Below, piece by piece: positions 1-11,688 of a stretch of DNA of 11,688 nt (its first letter is position 1; every line of letters starts with the position of its first letter). The notes under the pieces are model-generated. The model was given only the letters and a program-made list of their open reading frames with translations. It was not told the origin of the DNA and searched no databases. The DNA comes from SAR202 cluster bacterium (GTDB taxonomy: Bacteria; Chloroflexota; Dehalococcoidia; UBA3495), in contig NVSQ01000005.1 in assembly GCA_002401285.1 (NCBI GenBank), positions 79,008-90,695 on the forward strand, read 5' to 3'. A program made the position numbers and the translations under genes.

Positions 1-1
1 G

Positions 2-286
2 ACACTCGCCGTCAAGCACGATGCCACCGCTCTGAACATAGTTTATAACGACACCACCGGCGGTGTAAACGCGGGCAACGAGGTTGAGTTTTTCAACCCA
101 CCCATCCCCGGCAAGAAAATCTTCGTCAAAGGCCGCATCGCCGACAAGTACCTTCGCCGGGACAAGCCCTATCTCGTGATCGAGGCCACAGCCACTGATG
201 AGGACGGGCGGTTGTTGGAAAGGCTTAAGACGTATCAAATGAAAAAACCCGATGAGGTAGGAAAGAAATGGAATCCACAAACATAG
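2..286 (+). CDS. FAS1/MaoC-type hotdog dehydratase subunit, C-terminal part (partial)
   Basis: The reading frame is open from the left edge of the window to TAG at 284-286, giving 94 residues with the N-terminus missing. The segment NEVEFFNPPIPGKKI, followed by an alternating-strand stretch (GRIADKY, then a pair of beta-strands ending in LKTYQM), fits the second half of the MaoC N-terminal/FAS1 dehydratase hotdog fold. Members of that family usually pair with a second hotdog protein to hydrate or dehydrate 3-hydroxyacyl thioesters. The next gene is such a protein and overlaps this one by 19 nt, so the two are probably translationally coupled and form a heteromeric enzyme. No catalytic residues are visible in this fragment. 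The acyl substrate cannot be told from the sequence. Confidence 0.75.
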   Translation, partial: TLAVKHDATALNIVYNDTTGGVNAGNEVEFFNPPIPGKKIFVKGRIADKYLRRDKPYLVIEATATDEDGRLLERLKTYQMKKPDEVGKKWNPQT

Positions 287-687
287 AGATCGGCGCTCAG
301 ATTCCCTCGGTTACCAAATCCGTGACCACGGAAAGTATTCTCCAGTTCGAGTCCTGTGCGATTCTGGAGCGCGAAAATATCCACAACAACGAAGAACTGG
401 CCAAGCAACGCTTGGGCACCACCTATACGCTGGCTTCCGGCCGTATGTCCATAGCCTTTGCTTCTGAAGCCATGCGCAAGTTCTTCGGCCCCGACGTCTT
501 TCATCACACCGGCAGCGTCAATCTCAAGTTTCTGCGCCCGGTGAAGAACGGGGATACCATTACCGTCACTGGCTCGGTCAGCAGCCAGCGGCAGGTTGAG
601 AATGGGACGGAAATCACGGTGGACCTCCACTGCGAAAACCAGAACCATGACAGGACCGCCGCCGGCATCGGTACCGCCATCGTTTAG
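268..687 (+). CDS. MaoC-like hotdog dehydratase, partner subunit
   Basis: This 139-residue protein starts at an ATG with AGGA (259-262) six bases upstream, inside the end of the preceding dehydratase gene. Its length fits a single hotdog domain. Residues 34-39 (ERENIH) line up with the hydratase motif D-x-N-x-x-H of (R)-specific enoyl-CoA hydratases. His39 is kept but the usual Asp is Glu34. The central FGPDVFHHTGSVNLKFLRPV and the following GDTITVTG are typical of MaoC family strands. It probably acts with the upstream subunit on 3-hydroxyacyl-CoA or -ACP in fatty acid or polyketide metabolism, like two-subunit HadAB-type dehydratases. The partner relationship is inferred from the overlap. 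The Asp-to-Glu reading depends on a by-eye alignment. Confidence 0.8.
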   Translation: MESTNIEIGAQIPSVTKSVTTESILQFESCAILERENIHNNEELAKQRLGTTYTLASGRMSIAFASEAMRKFFGPDVFHHTGSVNLKFLRPVKNGDTITVTGSVSSQRQVENGTEITVDLHCENQNHDRTAAGIGTAIV

Positions 688-726
688 CAACGCCGCCGTA
701 GATCAAAGCACCGGGTGTTAGTCCGG

Positions 727-755
727 TTGCATCCAATATACGGAATGATTACACT
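727..755 (+). promoter_or_regulatory. possible sigma70-type promoter for the selenoprotein gene
   Basis: TTGCAT (727-732) and TACACT (750-755) are separated by 17 bp, in the 100-bp gap before the small SelW-like gene. Both boxes are only moderate matches to TTGACA/TATAAT, so this is a suggestion. Nothing else in 688-787 looks like a gene. Confidence 0.35.
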
Positions 756-787
756 GCGAATATATCGGCCCTTAACTTAGGAGGAAC

Positions 788-1087
788 ATGCCGGATCCAG
801 AGTATGGCAAAGTGGAGATTGAAGTCATCTACTGCTTGGCTTGAGGCTACTATCCCGTCGCCTCGTGGATGGCGACCGAGTTGTGGACCGCCCATGACCC
901 CGGAGATGTGGCGATCAAGCTAACCCCGGTCCATCAAGGCAGGCTTGAAGTCATGCTGAACGGGGAGTTGATCTTCGACCGCAAGGCCGACCCCAACGGG
1001 TTCCCCAACCTCACCAAGATCAACGAGCTAAAAATGATGGTCGCCGAGAAGATATTCGAGTTCGATACGGCGGTGGCTAGCGGATAA
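788..1087 (+). CDS. SelW/Rdx-family selenoprotein, UGA at 842-844 read as selenocysteine
   Basis: The frame opens at ATG 788 behind AGGAGG (779-784) and stays open to TAG at 1085-1087 except for one TGA at 842-844. Reading that TGA as Sec gives 99 residues. The N-terminal strand VEIEVIYC runs into C16-L-A-U19-G-Y, the C-x-x-U-G-Y redox motif of the SelW/SelT/SelH (Rdx) thioredoxin-like family. Downstream, GRLEVMLNGELIFDRK and the later GFPN match the family's second half (x-F-E-V-x-x-x-G-x-L-I-x-x-K, then a G-x-F-P-like turn). Length and motif placement fit small bacterial Rdx proteins, which are thought to be thiol/selenol oxidoreductases of unclear substrate. A conventional call would begin at the internal ATG 869 (72 residues) and lose both active-site residues and the ribosome site. 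UGA is a normal stop in two neighbouring genes, so wholesale UGA reassignment is unlikely. A Cys family member inactivated by a nonsense mutation is the alternative, but the downstream frame shows no decay. Confidence 0.85.
842..895 (+). promoter_or_regulatory. candidate bacterial SECIS region just after the Sec UGA
   Basis: Two stem-loops lie here. Hairpin A starts in the UGA itself: GAGGC (843-847) pairs with GCCTC (860-864), then after one U-C mismatch AC pairs with GT, leaving the loop TATCCC. Hairpin B pairs AT-GGCG (869-874) with CGCC-C-AT (889-895, one bulged C) and CC (876-877) with GG (885-886), leaving loop GAGTTGT with a G in first place. Its loop begins 33 nt after the UGA. From memory, bacterial SECIS elements place a G-containing apical loop roughly 16-37 nt past the UGA, so B fits that rule better, while A has the better continuous stem. 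The pairing was found by eye; no folding energy was computed. Confidence 0.5.
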
Positions 1088-1124
1088 TAGCGTGCCTAGG
1101 CCAACTTAGGATAACTTCGTTGGG

Positions 1125-1161
1125 ATGCAGCTCTGGGGTCTTTTCCAGGGCTGCATATTTT
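1125..1161 (+). terminator. intrinsic terminator after the SelW-like gene
   Basis: ATGCAGCTCTGG (1125-1136) pairs with CCAGGGCTGCAT (1145-1156), giving 12 pairs with one U-G wobble. The 8-nt loop ends in four T, and ATTTT follows the stem. It lies 38 bp after the selenoprotein stop and 30 bp before the pentapeptide gene, so it separates the two transcription units. Attenuation of the downstream gene is a less likely reading. Confidence 0.75.
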
Positions 1162-1190
1162 GTGAAGCACTGATACATGGAGCGTAACTA

Positions 1191-1892
1191 GTGGCCAACC
1201 AAGAGCATCTAGCGGTGGTCAAAGCCGGCCCCAAGTCCATCGCCGATTGGCGTGAAGAGAACCCGGGAGTCGCTTTGGACCTGGAAGGCGTAGACCTATC
1301 CGGCGCCGATCTAAAAGAGTGTAAGATCAGGAACGCCAACCTGAGCGGCGCCTCTCTTGCCGGAGCATCTCTCTTCCGGGCCAGCTTTGCCGGCGCGGAC
1401 CTCACCAGCGCTAACTTAGAAGGCGCCGATATGGGCAGGGCTACTCTAGCCGGCGCAAACTTGGAAGGCGCAAACTTGACCAACGTTAATCTGTATTGGG
1501 CCGACGTTAAGCGGGCTTCGCTACGAGGAGCCAACCTTCGCTGGAGCCGTGTGGTGCGTGCCTGCTTCCTAAGCGCCGACCTGACCGGGGCCGACTTTAG
1601 CATGGCGACCATGTTGGAAGTAGACCTTCGCGGCACGGATCTGACCAACGCTTGCTTTCAGTCGGCCAACATGAACGGGGCGGACATGGACCGGGCGGTG
1701 ATGACCGGCGCGGACTTTACCAAGGCGATGATACGCGATTCTATGTGGACTATGTCCGACATGAGGGGTGCTAACTTCGACCGGGCCAGTCTCCACCGTT
1801 CCGACCTCAGCATGGCCAAGTTCGACGATACCACTCGATTTCCCCAGGGTTTCGATCCCTACCACACCGGTGAGAAGGATGTGCTGGACTGA
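1191..1892 (+). CDS. pentapeptide-repeat protein
   Basis: This 233-residue protein starts at GTG 1191 with GGAG (1179-1182) eight bases upstream. After a short N-terminal segment (IADWREENPGV, about residues 17-27), residues about 29-210 are almost entirely tandem A-(D/N)-L-x-x pentapeptides, such as LSGADL, LEGADM and LAGANLEGANL. These fold as a right-handed quadrilateral beta-helix. About 35 repeats would make a rod of roughly nine coils. No signal peptide, membrane segment or catalytic domain is visible, so it is probably cytoplasmic. Functions in the family range from gyrase protection (Qnr/MfpA) to unknown, and nothing here selects among them. The BioD-like gene follows after 45 bp with its own ribosome site, and the two are probably cotranscribed. 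Confidence 0.9.
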   Translation: MANQEHLAVVKAGPKSIADWREENPGVALDLEGVDLSGADLKECKIRNANLSGASLAGASLFRASFAGADLTSANLEGADMGRATLAGANLEGANLTNVNLYWADVKRASLRGANLRWSRVVRACFLSADLTGADFSMATMLEVDLRGTDLTNACFQSANMNGADMDRAVMTGADFTKAMIRDSMWTMSDMRGANFDRASLHRSDLSMAKFDDTTRFPQGFDPYHTGEKDVLD

Positions 1893-1937
1893 AGTTCTGA
1901 ATACATCAGTTCCGCCGGTATACCCCGGGAGGTTTTC

Positions 1938-2984
1938 TTGGGAGTATTGCTAGTCTCCGCCCATCTTTCCGGCTCCGGCAAGACCAGCCTGGTAGCGGCG
2001 CTTCTGACCCAGCTGCTCGCTGAAGGCCGGAGAGTGGCCTATTACAAACCATTCTCCACCTCCCCGGACAACGACCCGGATATCTCATTTATCTCCGAAA
2101 CGATCCTTGCCGGTACGGACGGCCCGCCGGTTCCTACGCCTTTGGCGCTGCCGAGGAACGGCTCTAACGGCCCGCTCCTGCCGGAGGAACAATCCCAAAC
2201 CATCCGTCAGTGTCTATCAGAAATTCAAAGTACCGCCGGCGTAGTCCTGATCGAGGGCCCCGACGCCGTGTCACCGGATGGAGAGCCTTGGTCCCTGCCT
2301 ATCGACCTGACCGATCTGTTGGCGTGCCCGGCCTTGTTGATATTCCCCTACGCTAACGGACTGGACTTCCAGACGGTGCTAAGCGCCGCCGAGAGCTTTT
2401 CCCCAGGCTTGTCCGGACTTGTCATCAACGGCGTGACTAGCTATCGGCAACGAGACGTTGAGCGGGGATCACTGGCTCAACTGCGCGCCGCCGGAGCAAC
2501 GGTATTTGGCGCTATCCCCGAAGACCGTGTCATGCTGGGAGTGACTGTGCAGCAGATCTCCGAGCAGCTAGGCGGGCGGTGGATCCAAGACCCGGTGAAC
2601 ACGGACGCCTGCATCGACCGGTTCTTGTTGGGCGGCAACATAATGGACGCTGGACACACATACTATGGACGCTACGCCAACCAGGCAGTGATCGTCCGGG
2701 CGGAGCGGCCCGATATCCAGATGGCCAGCTTGATGGAAGACACCAAATGCCTGGTATTAACCGGCGGCTCCGAGCCCTCGGACTACGTTAAAGCCGAAGC
2801 CTTGGAAAAGGACGTGCCGTTGATCTCGGTGACGGAAAGCACGCTGAGCACCGCCGAGGCCCTAGCGGGCGTTTTGGAACGGGCCACGCCTTACTCCCGA
2901 ACTAAGGTAGAAAGGTTCGGCCAGCTCATGCGGCAAAACTTAGACATGGAAGCTCTTTCTGCCGTCTTGACCACGTCATCTTAG
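1938..2984 (+). CDS. BioD-like P-loop protein with C-terminal DRTGG domain
   Basis: This 348-residue protein starts at TTG 1938, five bases after GGGAGG (1927-1932). The N-terminus MGVLLVSAHLSGSGKTS carries a Walker A loop (GSGKT, residues 12-16) of the dethiobiotin synthetase-like (AAA_26/CobB-BioD) kind. Residues about 15-215 form this P-loop domain, with GVVLIEGPDAV in a Walker B-like position. From about residue 226 comes a DRTGG-type domain (FLLGGNIMDAG, AERPDIQ, LVLTGGSEPSD). The same two-domain arrangement makes up the N-terminal half of long phosphotransacetylases, but the catalytic PTA domain is absent, so it should not be called Pta. Stand-alone versions occur in archaea, cyanobacteria and Chloroflexota and may be ligand-sensing or regulatory. 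The partner is unknown. It ends just before a new promoter. Confidence 0.8.
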   Translation: MGVLLVSAHLSGSGKTSLVAALLTQLLAEGRRVAYYKPFSTSPDNDPDISFISETILAGTDGPPVPTPLALPRNGSNGPLLPEEQSQTIRQCLSEIQSTAGVVLIEGPDAVSPDGEPWSLPIDLTDLLACPALLIFPYANGLDFQTVLSAAESFSPGLSGLVINGVTSYRQRDVERGSLAQLRAAGATVFGAIPEDRVMLGVTVQQISEQLGGRWIQDPVNTDACIDRFLLGGNIMDAGHTYYGRYANQAVIVRAERPDIQMASLMEDTKCLVLTGGSEPSDYVKAEALEKDVPLISVTESTLSTAEALAGVLERATPYSRTKVERFGQLMRQNLDMEALSAVLTTSS

Positions 2985-2985
2985 C

Positions 2986-3015
2986 TTGACTTGCAACCCG
3001 CTTCCCACCTAGAAT
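2986..3015 (+). promoter_or_regulatory. sigma70-type promoter for the A-type Fe-S carrier gene
   Basis: TTGACT (2986-2991) and TAGAAT (3010-3015) have an 18-bp spacer. Each box matches consensus at five of six positions. The start codon is 45 bp further on, giving a short leader. This is one of the clearest promoters in the window. Confidence 0.7.
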
Positions 3016-9701: not shown

Positions 9702-11192
9702 ATGGGCTCGATGATTGGACCATCTCGCACTTTGCCGGCGCCCATGATCCTCACCGTTGTGGGGTTGGGCGCCTTCGTTACCGCCTTGGATCAAACGGTG
9801 GTGGTTACGGCCCTGCCCAGTCTGATGCTGGATCTGAAGATATCTTTAACCCAACTGGACCGGGCGTCCTGGATCATCACCGCCTACTTGTTGGGCTACA
9901 CGGCCGCGATGCCGGTGATAGGCCGCCTGGCCGATGTCTACGGCTATACCCGAGTCTATCAAGTCTCCTTAGTGGTGTTCGTCATAGGCACCAGCCTGGT
10001 GGCCGTATCTCAAAGCCTGGAGTGGATGGTCGCCGCCCGGGTGATACAGGCCGTGGGCGGTGGGGCAACCGTGCCGATCGGGTTGGCCATCGCGGGCAGC
10101 GCCCTTCCCCGGAAGCAATGGGGGTTGGCCTTGGGCATCGTGGCGGGCGCGGCGGAGGCCGGCTCCATGCTGGGCCCGGCCTATGGCGGGGCCATCATCG
10201 AGCTGGCCAACTGGCGTTGGATATTCTGGCTGAACGTCCCCCAGAGCGCGGTACTGTTCCTGGCCCTGTTCTGGCTGCCCAACCAACCGAACCGGCAGAA
10301 TAGGATAGATTACTTGGGCAGCGCCCTGCTGGTGGCGGCCCTGCTTCTCGTGTCGTTAGGGCTGTCCAGGAGCAGCCTGTTCACGCTTTCGTCGCCGCTT
10401 CCCTTCGTCTTGGGGGCCGCCGGACTGGCTTTGGCGGGGTTACTGCTTGCGGTGGAGCGCCGGACGGAGCAACCCTTGCTCGCGCCCGCCCTATTCCGCG
10501 CGACGTCGTTTCTGGCGGCCAACGGAGCCCAACTATTGGTCGGCGTCTCCCTGATCATCGCCATGGTGACTGTGCCTCTGATGGCCAACACCGTCATGGG
10601 GAAAACGCCGCTGACCGGCGCCATGTGGTTGCTGAGAATCACTGGAGCCATCCCCTTGGGGGCGGTGGTTGGCGGTTTGGTGTTGAGCCGGGTGGGAATC
10701 AGGCCGGTTATGGTAGCCGGGCTAGGGCTGACGGCCCTTGGATTGTTCCTGGTCAGCGGTTGGGAACTGGACGTGGGAGAGCCTCAGTTGACGCTGCACC
10801 TGGCTGTTGCCGGATTGGGATTTGGGCTGGTGATCTCGCCGATAATGACGCAGGCCCTTACCTCCGTGTCCGACGACTACCGGGCCACCGCCGCTTCGCT
10901 GGTGGTAGTTGCCCGCATGTTGGGGATGACGCTGGGCCTGGCGGCGTTGTCCGCCTGGGGAGTGGAGCATTTCCAGACACTTATGTCCGAATTGGAGTTT
11001 CCGCTGCCGCAACCCGGGGAGAGCGCCGAGGAGGTTCAAACCCGGCTGGCTGAGTACAGCGCGGGCCTGAACGCCGTTGGACTGTCCCTATTCCACAATT
11101 TTCTAAGGGTTGCCGCGGGCGTTGCGCTGGTGGCTATTCTCCCCGCTCTGGCAATGGGGACCGGCCTCGGTAGGTCTGGAAAGAGCGACTGA
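9702..11192 (+). CDS. MFS transporter, DHA2 (14-helix) family
   Basis: This 496-residue, highly hydrophobic protein has a length right for the 14-helix DHA2 drug/lipid exporters (EmrB/QacA/P55 type). Residues 29-39 (LDQTVVVTALP) are the DHA2 D1 motif in helix 1. GRLADVYGYTR (74-84) is motif A between helices 2 and 3. The stretch ending GSMLGPAYGG (about 149-163) is antiporter motif C in helix 5, which suggests proton-coupled export. ATG 9702 lies 4 bp after the stop of the LprG-like gene and has no good ribosome site, so translation is probably coupled. ATG 9711 is an alternative start. The lipoprotein-MFS pairing resembles mycobacterial lprG-Rv1410c, which exports triacylglycerides and lipoglycans; a similar role here is inference. 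The gene ends with TGA. Confidence 0.9.
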   Translation: MGSMIGPSRTLPAPMILTVVGLGAFVTALDQTVVVTALPSLMLDLKISLTQLDRASWIITAYLLGYTAAMPVIGRLADVYGYTRVYQVSLVVFVIGTSLVAVSQSLEWMVAARVIQAVGGGATVPIGLAIAGSALPRKQWGLALGIVAGAAEAGSMLGPAYGGAIIELANWRWIFWLNVPQSAVLFLALFWLPNQPNRQNRIDYLGSALLVAALLLVSLGLSRSSLFTLSSPLPFVLGAAGLALAGLLLAVERRTEQPLLAPALFRATSFLAANGAQLLVGVSLIIAMVTVPLMANTVMGKTPLTGAMWLLRITGAIPLGAVVGGLVLSRVGIRPVMVAGLGLTALGLFLVSGWELDVGEPQLTLHLAVAGLGFGLVISPIMTQALTSVSDDYRATAASLVVVARMLGMTLGLAALSAWGVEHFQTLMSELEFPLPQPGESAEEVQTRLAEYSAGLNAVGLSLFHNFLRVAAGVALVAILPALAMGTGLGRSGKSD

Positions 11193-11333: not shown

Positions 11334-11688
11334 GTGTTTATTCACCATTTTCTGACCAAGAAAGCAATTCTTCTGATCTTCGCGCTTACCCTTTTTGCGG
11401 TGGTTGCGGCGTGTGGCGGGAGCGATCAGGCTGTCAGACAAGTTGAAGTTATCAAAGAGGTACCTGTAGAGAAGATAGTCATCAAAGAGGTCATCAAAGA
11501 GGTACCTGTAGTAAAGATCGTCAAGCAAGAGGTAATCAAAGAGGTACCCGTAGAAAAGCAGGTTATCAAAGAAGTTCCGGTAGAGGTCATAAAAGAGGTA
11601 ATCGTAGAGAGAATCGTAGAAGTCCAGATAGCACCGCCGGTCAAGGACAAAAGAGAAATCGTTTTTGGTGGGTTGGACTGGGACAGCG
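11334..11688 (+). CDS. lipoprotein with VIKEVPV-repeat linker, probable ABC substrate-binding protein (partial)
   Basis: GTG 11334 lies seven bases after GGAGG (11322-11326), and the frame stays open to the window edge (118 residues seen). Residues 1-27 are a lipoprotein signal peptide: two lysines at 9-10, a hydrophobic core, then FAVVAAC with Cys27. Residues about 34-99 are a low-complexity linker of repeated VIKEVPV units alternating with short Glu/Lys/Val stretches and free of aromatics. It then changes abruptly to REIVFGGLDWDS, which resembles the first strand of glycine-betaine/choline (OpuAC-type) substrate-binding domains. The likely role is a membrane-anchored solute-binding protein held off the membrane by the charged Val-rich linker. 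The binding-domain assignment rests on about ten residues, so the solute is unproven. Confidence 0.75.
   Translation, partial: MFIHHFLTKKAILLIFALTLFAVVAACGGSDQAVRQVEVIKEVPVEKIVIKEVIKEVPVVKIVKQEVIKEVPVEKQVIKEVPVEVIKEVIVERIVEVQIAPPVKDKREIVFGGLDWDS
11448..11630 (+). repeat. in-frame repeat encoding VIKEVPV units
   Basis: The DNA repeats ATCAAAGAGGTACCTGTA-like units within the lipoprotein gene. The encoded VIKEVPV begins at residues 39, 53, 67 and 77, with a variant VIKEVIV at 85, so the spacings are 14, 14, 10 and 8 residues. The copies differ at third codon positions (CCT, CCC, CCG; GAG, GAA), so they are not a very recent expansion. Confidence 0.8.

Follow-up and report, generated by a model that had tools for sequence, protein, structure and literature searches.

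The locus raises the question of whether a single in-frame TGA, at positions 842-844 of the window (the whole stretch of 11,688 nucleotides that was analysed), stops translation or is read as selenocysteine (Sec) within a longer gene. The original prediction had chosen the second answer and proposed a selenoprotein that conventional gene calling overlooks, a reading which the family match, the state of codon 19 and the machinery of relatives support. We hold it nearly certain that this is the gene for a SelW-like (Rdx) selenoprotein, that its host is an uncultured Chloroflexota bacterium of the SAR202/Dehalococcoidia type, and that UGA19 is read as Sec by the standard bacterial route. The host bacterium is probably marine. 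Support comes from sequence comparison: homology, the conserved TGA, the exchange of Sec and Cys at its position, the machinery found in relatives, and the conservation of a hairpin after the UGA. For the window's own organism, Sec insertion is what we infer.

The read-through frame occupies 788..1087 on the forward strand, encodes 99 residues with Sec included, and has the TGA as its sole interruption. On the 5' side it is shut by an in-frame TAA at 773. ATG 788 and the single TGA were found as first described, but the terminal TAG was not: the end codon is TAA at 1085-1087, and TAG is the codon after it, at 1088-1090. A Shine-Dalgarno-like AGGAGG is present at 779..784 (+), as claimed, at a short spacing of 3 nt from the ATG; by a count by eye, 12 of 13 relatives have GGAG or GAGG 5' of the start, L013 being the exception. 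The read-through translation contains C-L-A-U-G-Y at the TGA, as had been noticed. Here TGC at 833..835 (+) encodes Cys16, the Cys of a C-x-x-U motif and a Cys in every homologue examined, and TGA at 842..844 (+) is read as selenocysteine, residue 19, where homologues have TGA or a Cys codon. UGA had also been called a normal stop in neighbouring genes. It is used as a stop, but it ends just two of the 12 other frames listed for the window (terminators at 1892 and 11192); UGA is therefore a stop in the host organism, though a minor one.

The read-through protein belongs to the family that had been proposed for it. It matches Pfam PF10262 (Rdx) with an E value of 9e-13 and 48.7 bits against a cut-off of 22.6, and NCBIfam TIGR02174 (CXXU_selWTH) with 40 bits, above the cut-off of 34.2; the narrower NF041051 (SelTWH_Campy) model was missed, at 47 against a cut-off of 88. 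Solved Rdx/SelW proteins also match it by sequence. Its structure was predicted with AlphaFold from a 21-row alignment with Cys substituted for Sec, giving a moderate mean pLDDT of 74. The model has a strand at 9-16, a helix at 22-33, strands at 41-48, 53-57 and 60-64, and a helix at 75-98, and C16-L-A-U19 (C16-x-x-U19) sits between the first strand and the first helix. Searched against the PDB with Foldseek, this model had Rdx/SelW-family chains as all of its top 22 matches, the 22nd being mouse SelW (2npb), in keeping with a SelW-type thioredoxin-like fold.

The bacterial Rdx structures 2fa8, 2obk, 2oka, 2p0g, 3dex and 2ojl share the same domain and fold. Alignments to 3dex and 2fa8 place a Cys at the first redox position, as here; their motif is C-T-Q-C, with Cys where the window has Sec. 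Mouse selenoprotein W shares the SelW fold (TM 0.72/0.80) at 24% identity, and SELENOW has the C-x-x-U motif according to the available text of PMC8508763. It differs in that the eukaryotic SECIS is located in the 3' UTR, as stated in the part of PMC1088965 that was available, whereas the predicted hairpin of the window is in coding sequence. The product would be thioredoxin-like in fold, with Cys16 and Sec19 placed in the loop that follows the first strand, and its most likely role would be that of a small thiol-selenol oxidoreductase which cycles through a selenenylsulfide bond. The redox cycle and any partner of the SelW-like protein are putative.

A scan of a genome collection found 13 related loci, in genomes titled Dehalococcoidia, Chloroflexi or SAR202. 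The closest are L001, with 94.0% DNA identity over 5,560 bases, and L002, with 91.6% over 7,083 bases. All 13 have TGA at the equivalent codon with the frame open on either side; in L012 the TGA is codon 18, the protein being one residue shorter at the front. A wider survey covered 393 genomes of the class of G002 (the source of L002), drawn from a larger group, and 144 of them had matches at E <= 0.001. Among the best 30 loci, codon 19 is TGA in 29 and TGC in one (L058), and Cys16 is present in 30/30; one of the 30, L055, is the L002 gene again. Another 20 regions were hand-picked, mostly for a reported stop-free match, and yielded 24 frames, with TGC or TGT at codon 19 in 17, TGA in seven, and Cys16 in 24/24. 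Repeats occur among these regions (L100 is L058, and L087 is L073), and L090 enters the codon count as one frame, though the class-wide survey has a TGA copy beside it. The proposed check, that homologues should have Cys or Sec at residue 19, thus came out positive in 13/13 relatives, 30/30 loci and 24/24 frames, which are all of the loci examined; most of the weaker class matches lie outside this set.

The in-frame TGA is not a chance event, because the same codon is TGA in all 13 relatives and is otherwise Cys or Sec. This bears on the reading of the TGA as a sequencing error or the mark of a pseudogene, that is, a mutated or misread Cys codon in a gene that is dead or mis-assembled. TGA is one base from TGC and TGT, and Cys forms do occur in the class, but an error would have to recur in each of the 13 separate genome records and in all but one of the 30 class-wide loci, in a gene under purifying selection on either side of the TGA. 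We give this reading next to no credence.

That selection was measured across 14 orthologues, in an alignment in which L012 is off by one codon at the start. Codons 2-18, before the TGA, gave a pN/pS of 0.275, and codons 20-66, after it, gave 0.281; the two shifted frames of the 5' part had values of 1.09 and 1.57. The two halves are alike, and thus the half before the TGA is kept as protein like the half after it. The same comparison weighs on the 72-residue ORF from ATG 869 (869..1087, +), which was reproduced as the conventional call in the selW frame and which we take to be a truncation artefact. It is the conventional ORF of the frame, and its homologues are deposited in such form, so one might suppose that it is the true product and that the upstream half is a leader or relic. 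However, only four of the 14 sequences have ATG at the position of ATG 869, the other 10 having CTG or TTG there, and a separate 72-residue gene is disfavoured because of this. The upstream half is under equal constraint and supplies the family domain with both redox residues as well as its first strand, and no frame without the Cys/Sec pair was seen among the 30 class-wide loci and 24 frames. The chance that the short protein is the real one is negligible.

The deposited forms were found in a protein database search, which returned 30 homologues at E <= 0.001 out of 31 candidates, all of 67-76 residues. All 30 start after the TGA position, with both redox residues lost. The search needs shared five-residue words, and distant full-length Cys forms would escape it. 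Only one of the 30 comes with a source name, 'predicted Rdx family selenoprotein'. With correct annotation, a selenoprotein family common in the sea would be linked to a host lineage, and these bacteria would be marked as likely selenium users.

Several smaller observations were made during these comparisons. Rdx genes with Sec (TGA) and with Cys (TGC) stand in tandem in L087, L091, L092 and L093, in more distant genomes, and such pairs are natural material for testing why Sec is retained. G002 has a second, distant Rdx gene (L099, G002:C2:6726-6977) with TGA at the same position in the context C-V-P-U-Q-H; the record has several N in the region of this gene. The base 5' of the TGA, window position 841, is T in 14/14 orthologues, where codon 18 is Ala, Pro or Ser, and this T is not conserved in the wider class. 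A plasmid collection held distant Rdx genes in five records, at 34-39% identity, and one pattern-based scan of a viral collection found no relative.

The original prediction expected Sec insertion machinery elsewhere in the genome. Such machinery was found in the genomes of relatives, but the set is incomplete in some of the 13, which are drafts of unstated completeness. tRNA-Sec was found in 13/13 at 62.9-69 bits, against an Rfam cut-off of 47 bits that is not fully specific, since second matches in some genomes and 5 of 14 control genomes also pass it; ARAGORN reported tRNA-SeC with anticodon TCA in the same 13. selB scored above its cut-off in 12 of 13 relatives (controls 2/14), selA in 11 (controls 1/14, E. 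coli) and selD in 11 (controls 2/14). Below cut-off were selA in G003, selD in G001, and selA, selB and selD in G007. G002 carries all four of selA, selB, selC and selD. For the window's organism, the machinery would be assigned by kinship with these relatives. Across the class, selA is no discriminator, as 257 of 393 genomes are positive at E <= 1e-40. By our own count it is present in 23 of the 29 genomes with a verified TGA copy; five of the six selA-negative genomes have tRNA-Sec above cut-off, and G225 has none at E <= 1e-8.

These genomes are also relevant to the idea that UGA is decoded as another amino acid, either as Cys, through an opal-decoding tRNA, or as Trp in an altered genetic code. 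The natural substitute at position 19 is Cys, and recoded Sec systems occur in nature, as Mukai reportedly described in 2016. Set against this, UGA still terminates two of the 12 neighbouring frames, the relatives have tRNA-Sec, SelA, SelB and SelD, and Trp is never found at position 19 in the homologues examined. A reading as Cys or Trp is very improbable, and Sec is preferred. Sequence error, pseudogene, code change and the short ORF were all rejected, on the conserved TGA, the constraint and the machinery of relatives.

In these Chloroflexi, SelD too is a selenoprotein: at 11/11 loci (L042-L052) its gene has an in-frame TGA, set in the context H-[CT]-A-G-U. After the selD TGA comes a hairpin-like stretch, which in several of these loci reads GACCU..AGGUC as judged by eye. 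The relatives' Sec-containing SelD therefore resembles SelW in having an in-frame TGA and a hairpin-like stretch with, by eye, a G in the loop. It differs in that the protein is unrelated, the hairpin has another sequence, and it is farther from the UGA.

Sec-tRNA(UCA) would be made by SelA and SelD, and SelB would deliver it on binding an mRNA hairpin within the coding sequence, whose loop would be positioned 18-19 nt past the UGA. Folding, a published model and conservation together predict such a bacterial SECIS hairpin, GUCGCC-UCGUGGAU-GGCGAC, within the coding sequence at 857..876 (+). It has a 6 bp stem and an 8-nt loop, the stem starting 12 nt and the loop 18 nt past the UGA, and an energy of -10.3 kcal/mol. 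The bacterial SECIS model, as given in the available part of PMC13188914, has a loop of 3-9 nt, a stem of 4-16 bp, a distance from UGA to loop of 16-37 nt and an energy of -7.5 kcal/mol or lower, with a G within the first two loop positions. The window's hairpin satisfies the model in loop size, stem length, spacing and energy. In its loop, UCGUGGAU, the G is third, and it is second only when a U-U mismatch is counted as closing. By our own count the G rule holds in 10 of 14 sequences and all terms of the model in 7 of 14; the hairpins of L007-L009 are weaker than the -7.5 kcal/mol limit.

After L001, L002 and L009 were excluded as near-repeats, all 11 remaining lineages form the five core pairs of the hairpin, where free synonymous codons would give 2.2, and synonymous sites are much diverged (pS 0.68-0.74). 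The corresponding P value of ~1.5e-8 assumes independent lineages, and since the helix was picked from these very sequences, that value is optimistic. Alignment columns 18 and 33 covary, as CG, UA, AU and UG. Among 500 shuffles of the 13 distinct rows, the observed value was reached by one for the covariation score, three for the paired fraction and two for both-side changes; the other two of five covariation measures, pair count and pair types, were weak (54 and 64 of 500). Tested in individual sequences, the hairpin does not stand out, with 11-28% of synonymous recodings equal to it. When 63 nt are folded with the UGA included, 7 of 14 sequences by our own count, the window among them, favour another structure; folded without the UGA, the core pairs have probabilities of 0.59 (L013) to 1.00. 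A lenient-threshold Rfam search of window positions 1-3000 gave no match.

Sec and Cys genes also differ at the helix. Among the loci of the class-wide survey and the further regions, 33 of 36 Sec frames can form it in one or other of two registers, versus 5 of 19 Cys frames; the second register was defined post hoc on the sequences under test. Without L055 and the repeats, the contrast is 32/34 versus 4/17 by our own count, and it is not purely an RNA effect because the protein sequence differs there too. The two registers lie over the same protein stretch, with the loop CGUGG in the window's clade and UGGAU in most of the more distant Sec forms (L059-L084).

The kind of protein is already well known, and SelW-like CxxU proteins are among the commonest marine bacterial selenoproteins. 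In the available portions of the sources, SelW-like outnumbers every other selenoprotein family in the Sargasso Sea set, with 48 genes (PMC1088965), and in the GOS table, with 427 genes (PMC2398784); a later marine survey assigns to it 11.3% of its selenoprotein genes (PMC9402790). The bacterial SelW-like proteins of the Sargasso Sea and GOS, as those sources present them in part, share with the window's gene the Rdx family (PF10262), the CxxU motif and a SECIS-like hairpin soon after the UGA (PMC1088965, PMC2398784, PMC9312934), and they are marine, as are the nearest relatives of the window's gene. They are likened here by description only; the difference is that for the present gene the host group, machinery and neighbourhood are known from relatives.

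Selenium use in the phylum has precedents. The accessible text of PMC1794560 lists three selenoproteins for Chloroflexi, and that of PMC4959059 describes Sec formate dehydrogenases together with selenocysteine translation factors from Chloroflexi single cells, and also refers to annotated Sec dehydrogenases in Dehalococcoidales. SelA and SelB co-occur in most sponge-symbiont bins of various phyla, and SAR202 bins are listed in a table of that paper (PMC5649159, available part). PMC5424206, from what was available of it, concerns a different system, RNA-dependent cysteine synthesis. A limited search of open-access literature found no publication on SelW in SAR202 among the entries listed, and 'Chloroflex' was not found in the available portions of PMC9312934 and PMC13188914. 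Less expected than the protein itself are its conserved gene order, seen in 13/13 loci, and the tandem Sec and Cys copies in distant relatives.

In that order, a dehydratase-like frame and a MaoC-like gene are followed, on one strand, by selW, a pentapeptide-repeat gene and an AAA_26/DRTGG gene. The first, at 2..286 (+), is a frame cut at its 5' end which overlaps the MaoC-like gene and has no Pfam match; its complete copy in L002 has a sub-threshold match to FAS1_DH_region (E 0.032). The conserved upstream neighbour, at 268..687 (+), encodes a MaoC-like dehydratase (PF01575, E 5e-7; 13/13 loci). The conserved downstream neighbour, at 1191..1892 (+), encodes a pentapeptide-repeat protein (PF00805, E 3e-53; 13/13 loci). 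It is followed at 1938..2984 (+) by a gene for a protein with AAA_26 and DRTGG domains (Pfam; 13/13 loci), which, at a score below the cut-off, resembles a long model for phosphate acetyltransferase in its N-terminal half. The neighbours are not always adjacent: L010 has its AAA_26/DRTGG gene about 4 kb farther along, and in both L005 and L013 the MaoC-like match is set apart from selW by some 450-650 bases. The recurring order suggests a possible functional link, and the conserved neighbourhood hints where a SelW partner might be sought. A bolder proposal is that SelW of SAR202-type bacteria would be a dedicated redox partner or switch of the conserved cluster, linking selenium supply to acyl-CoA metabolism. 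We consider this unlikely; if true, it would provide a concrete candidate partner for SelW-like proteins.

Two further frames were noticed toward the far end of the window. An MFS transporter at 9702-11192 resembles the EmrB/DHA2 efflux type, with 193 bits against a cut-off of 230.2, and 11334-11687 contains the first part of a lipoprotein-like frame, with K-E-V-P-V-E-type repeats, that runs past the end of the window.
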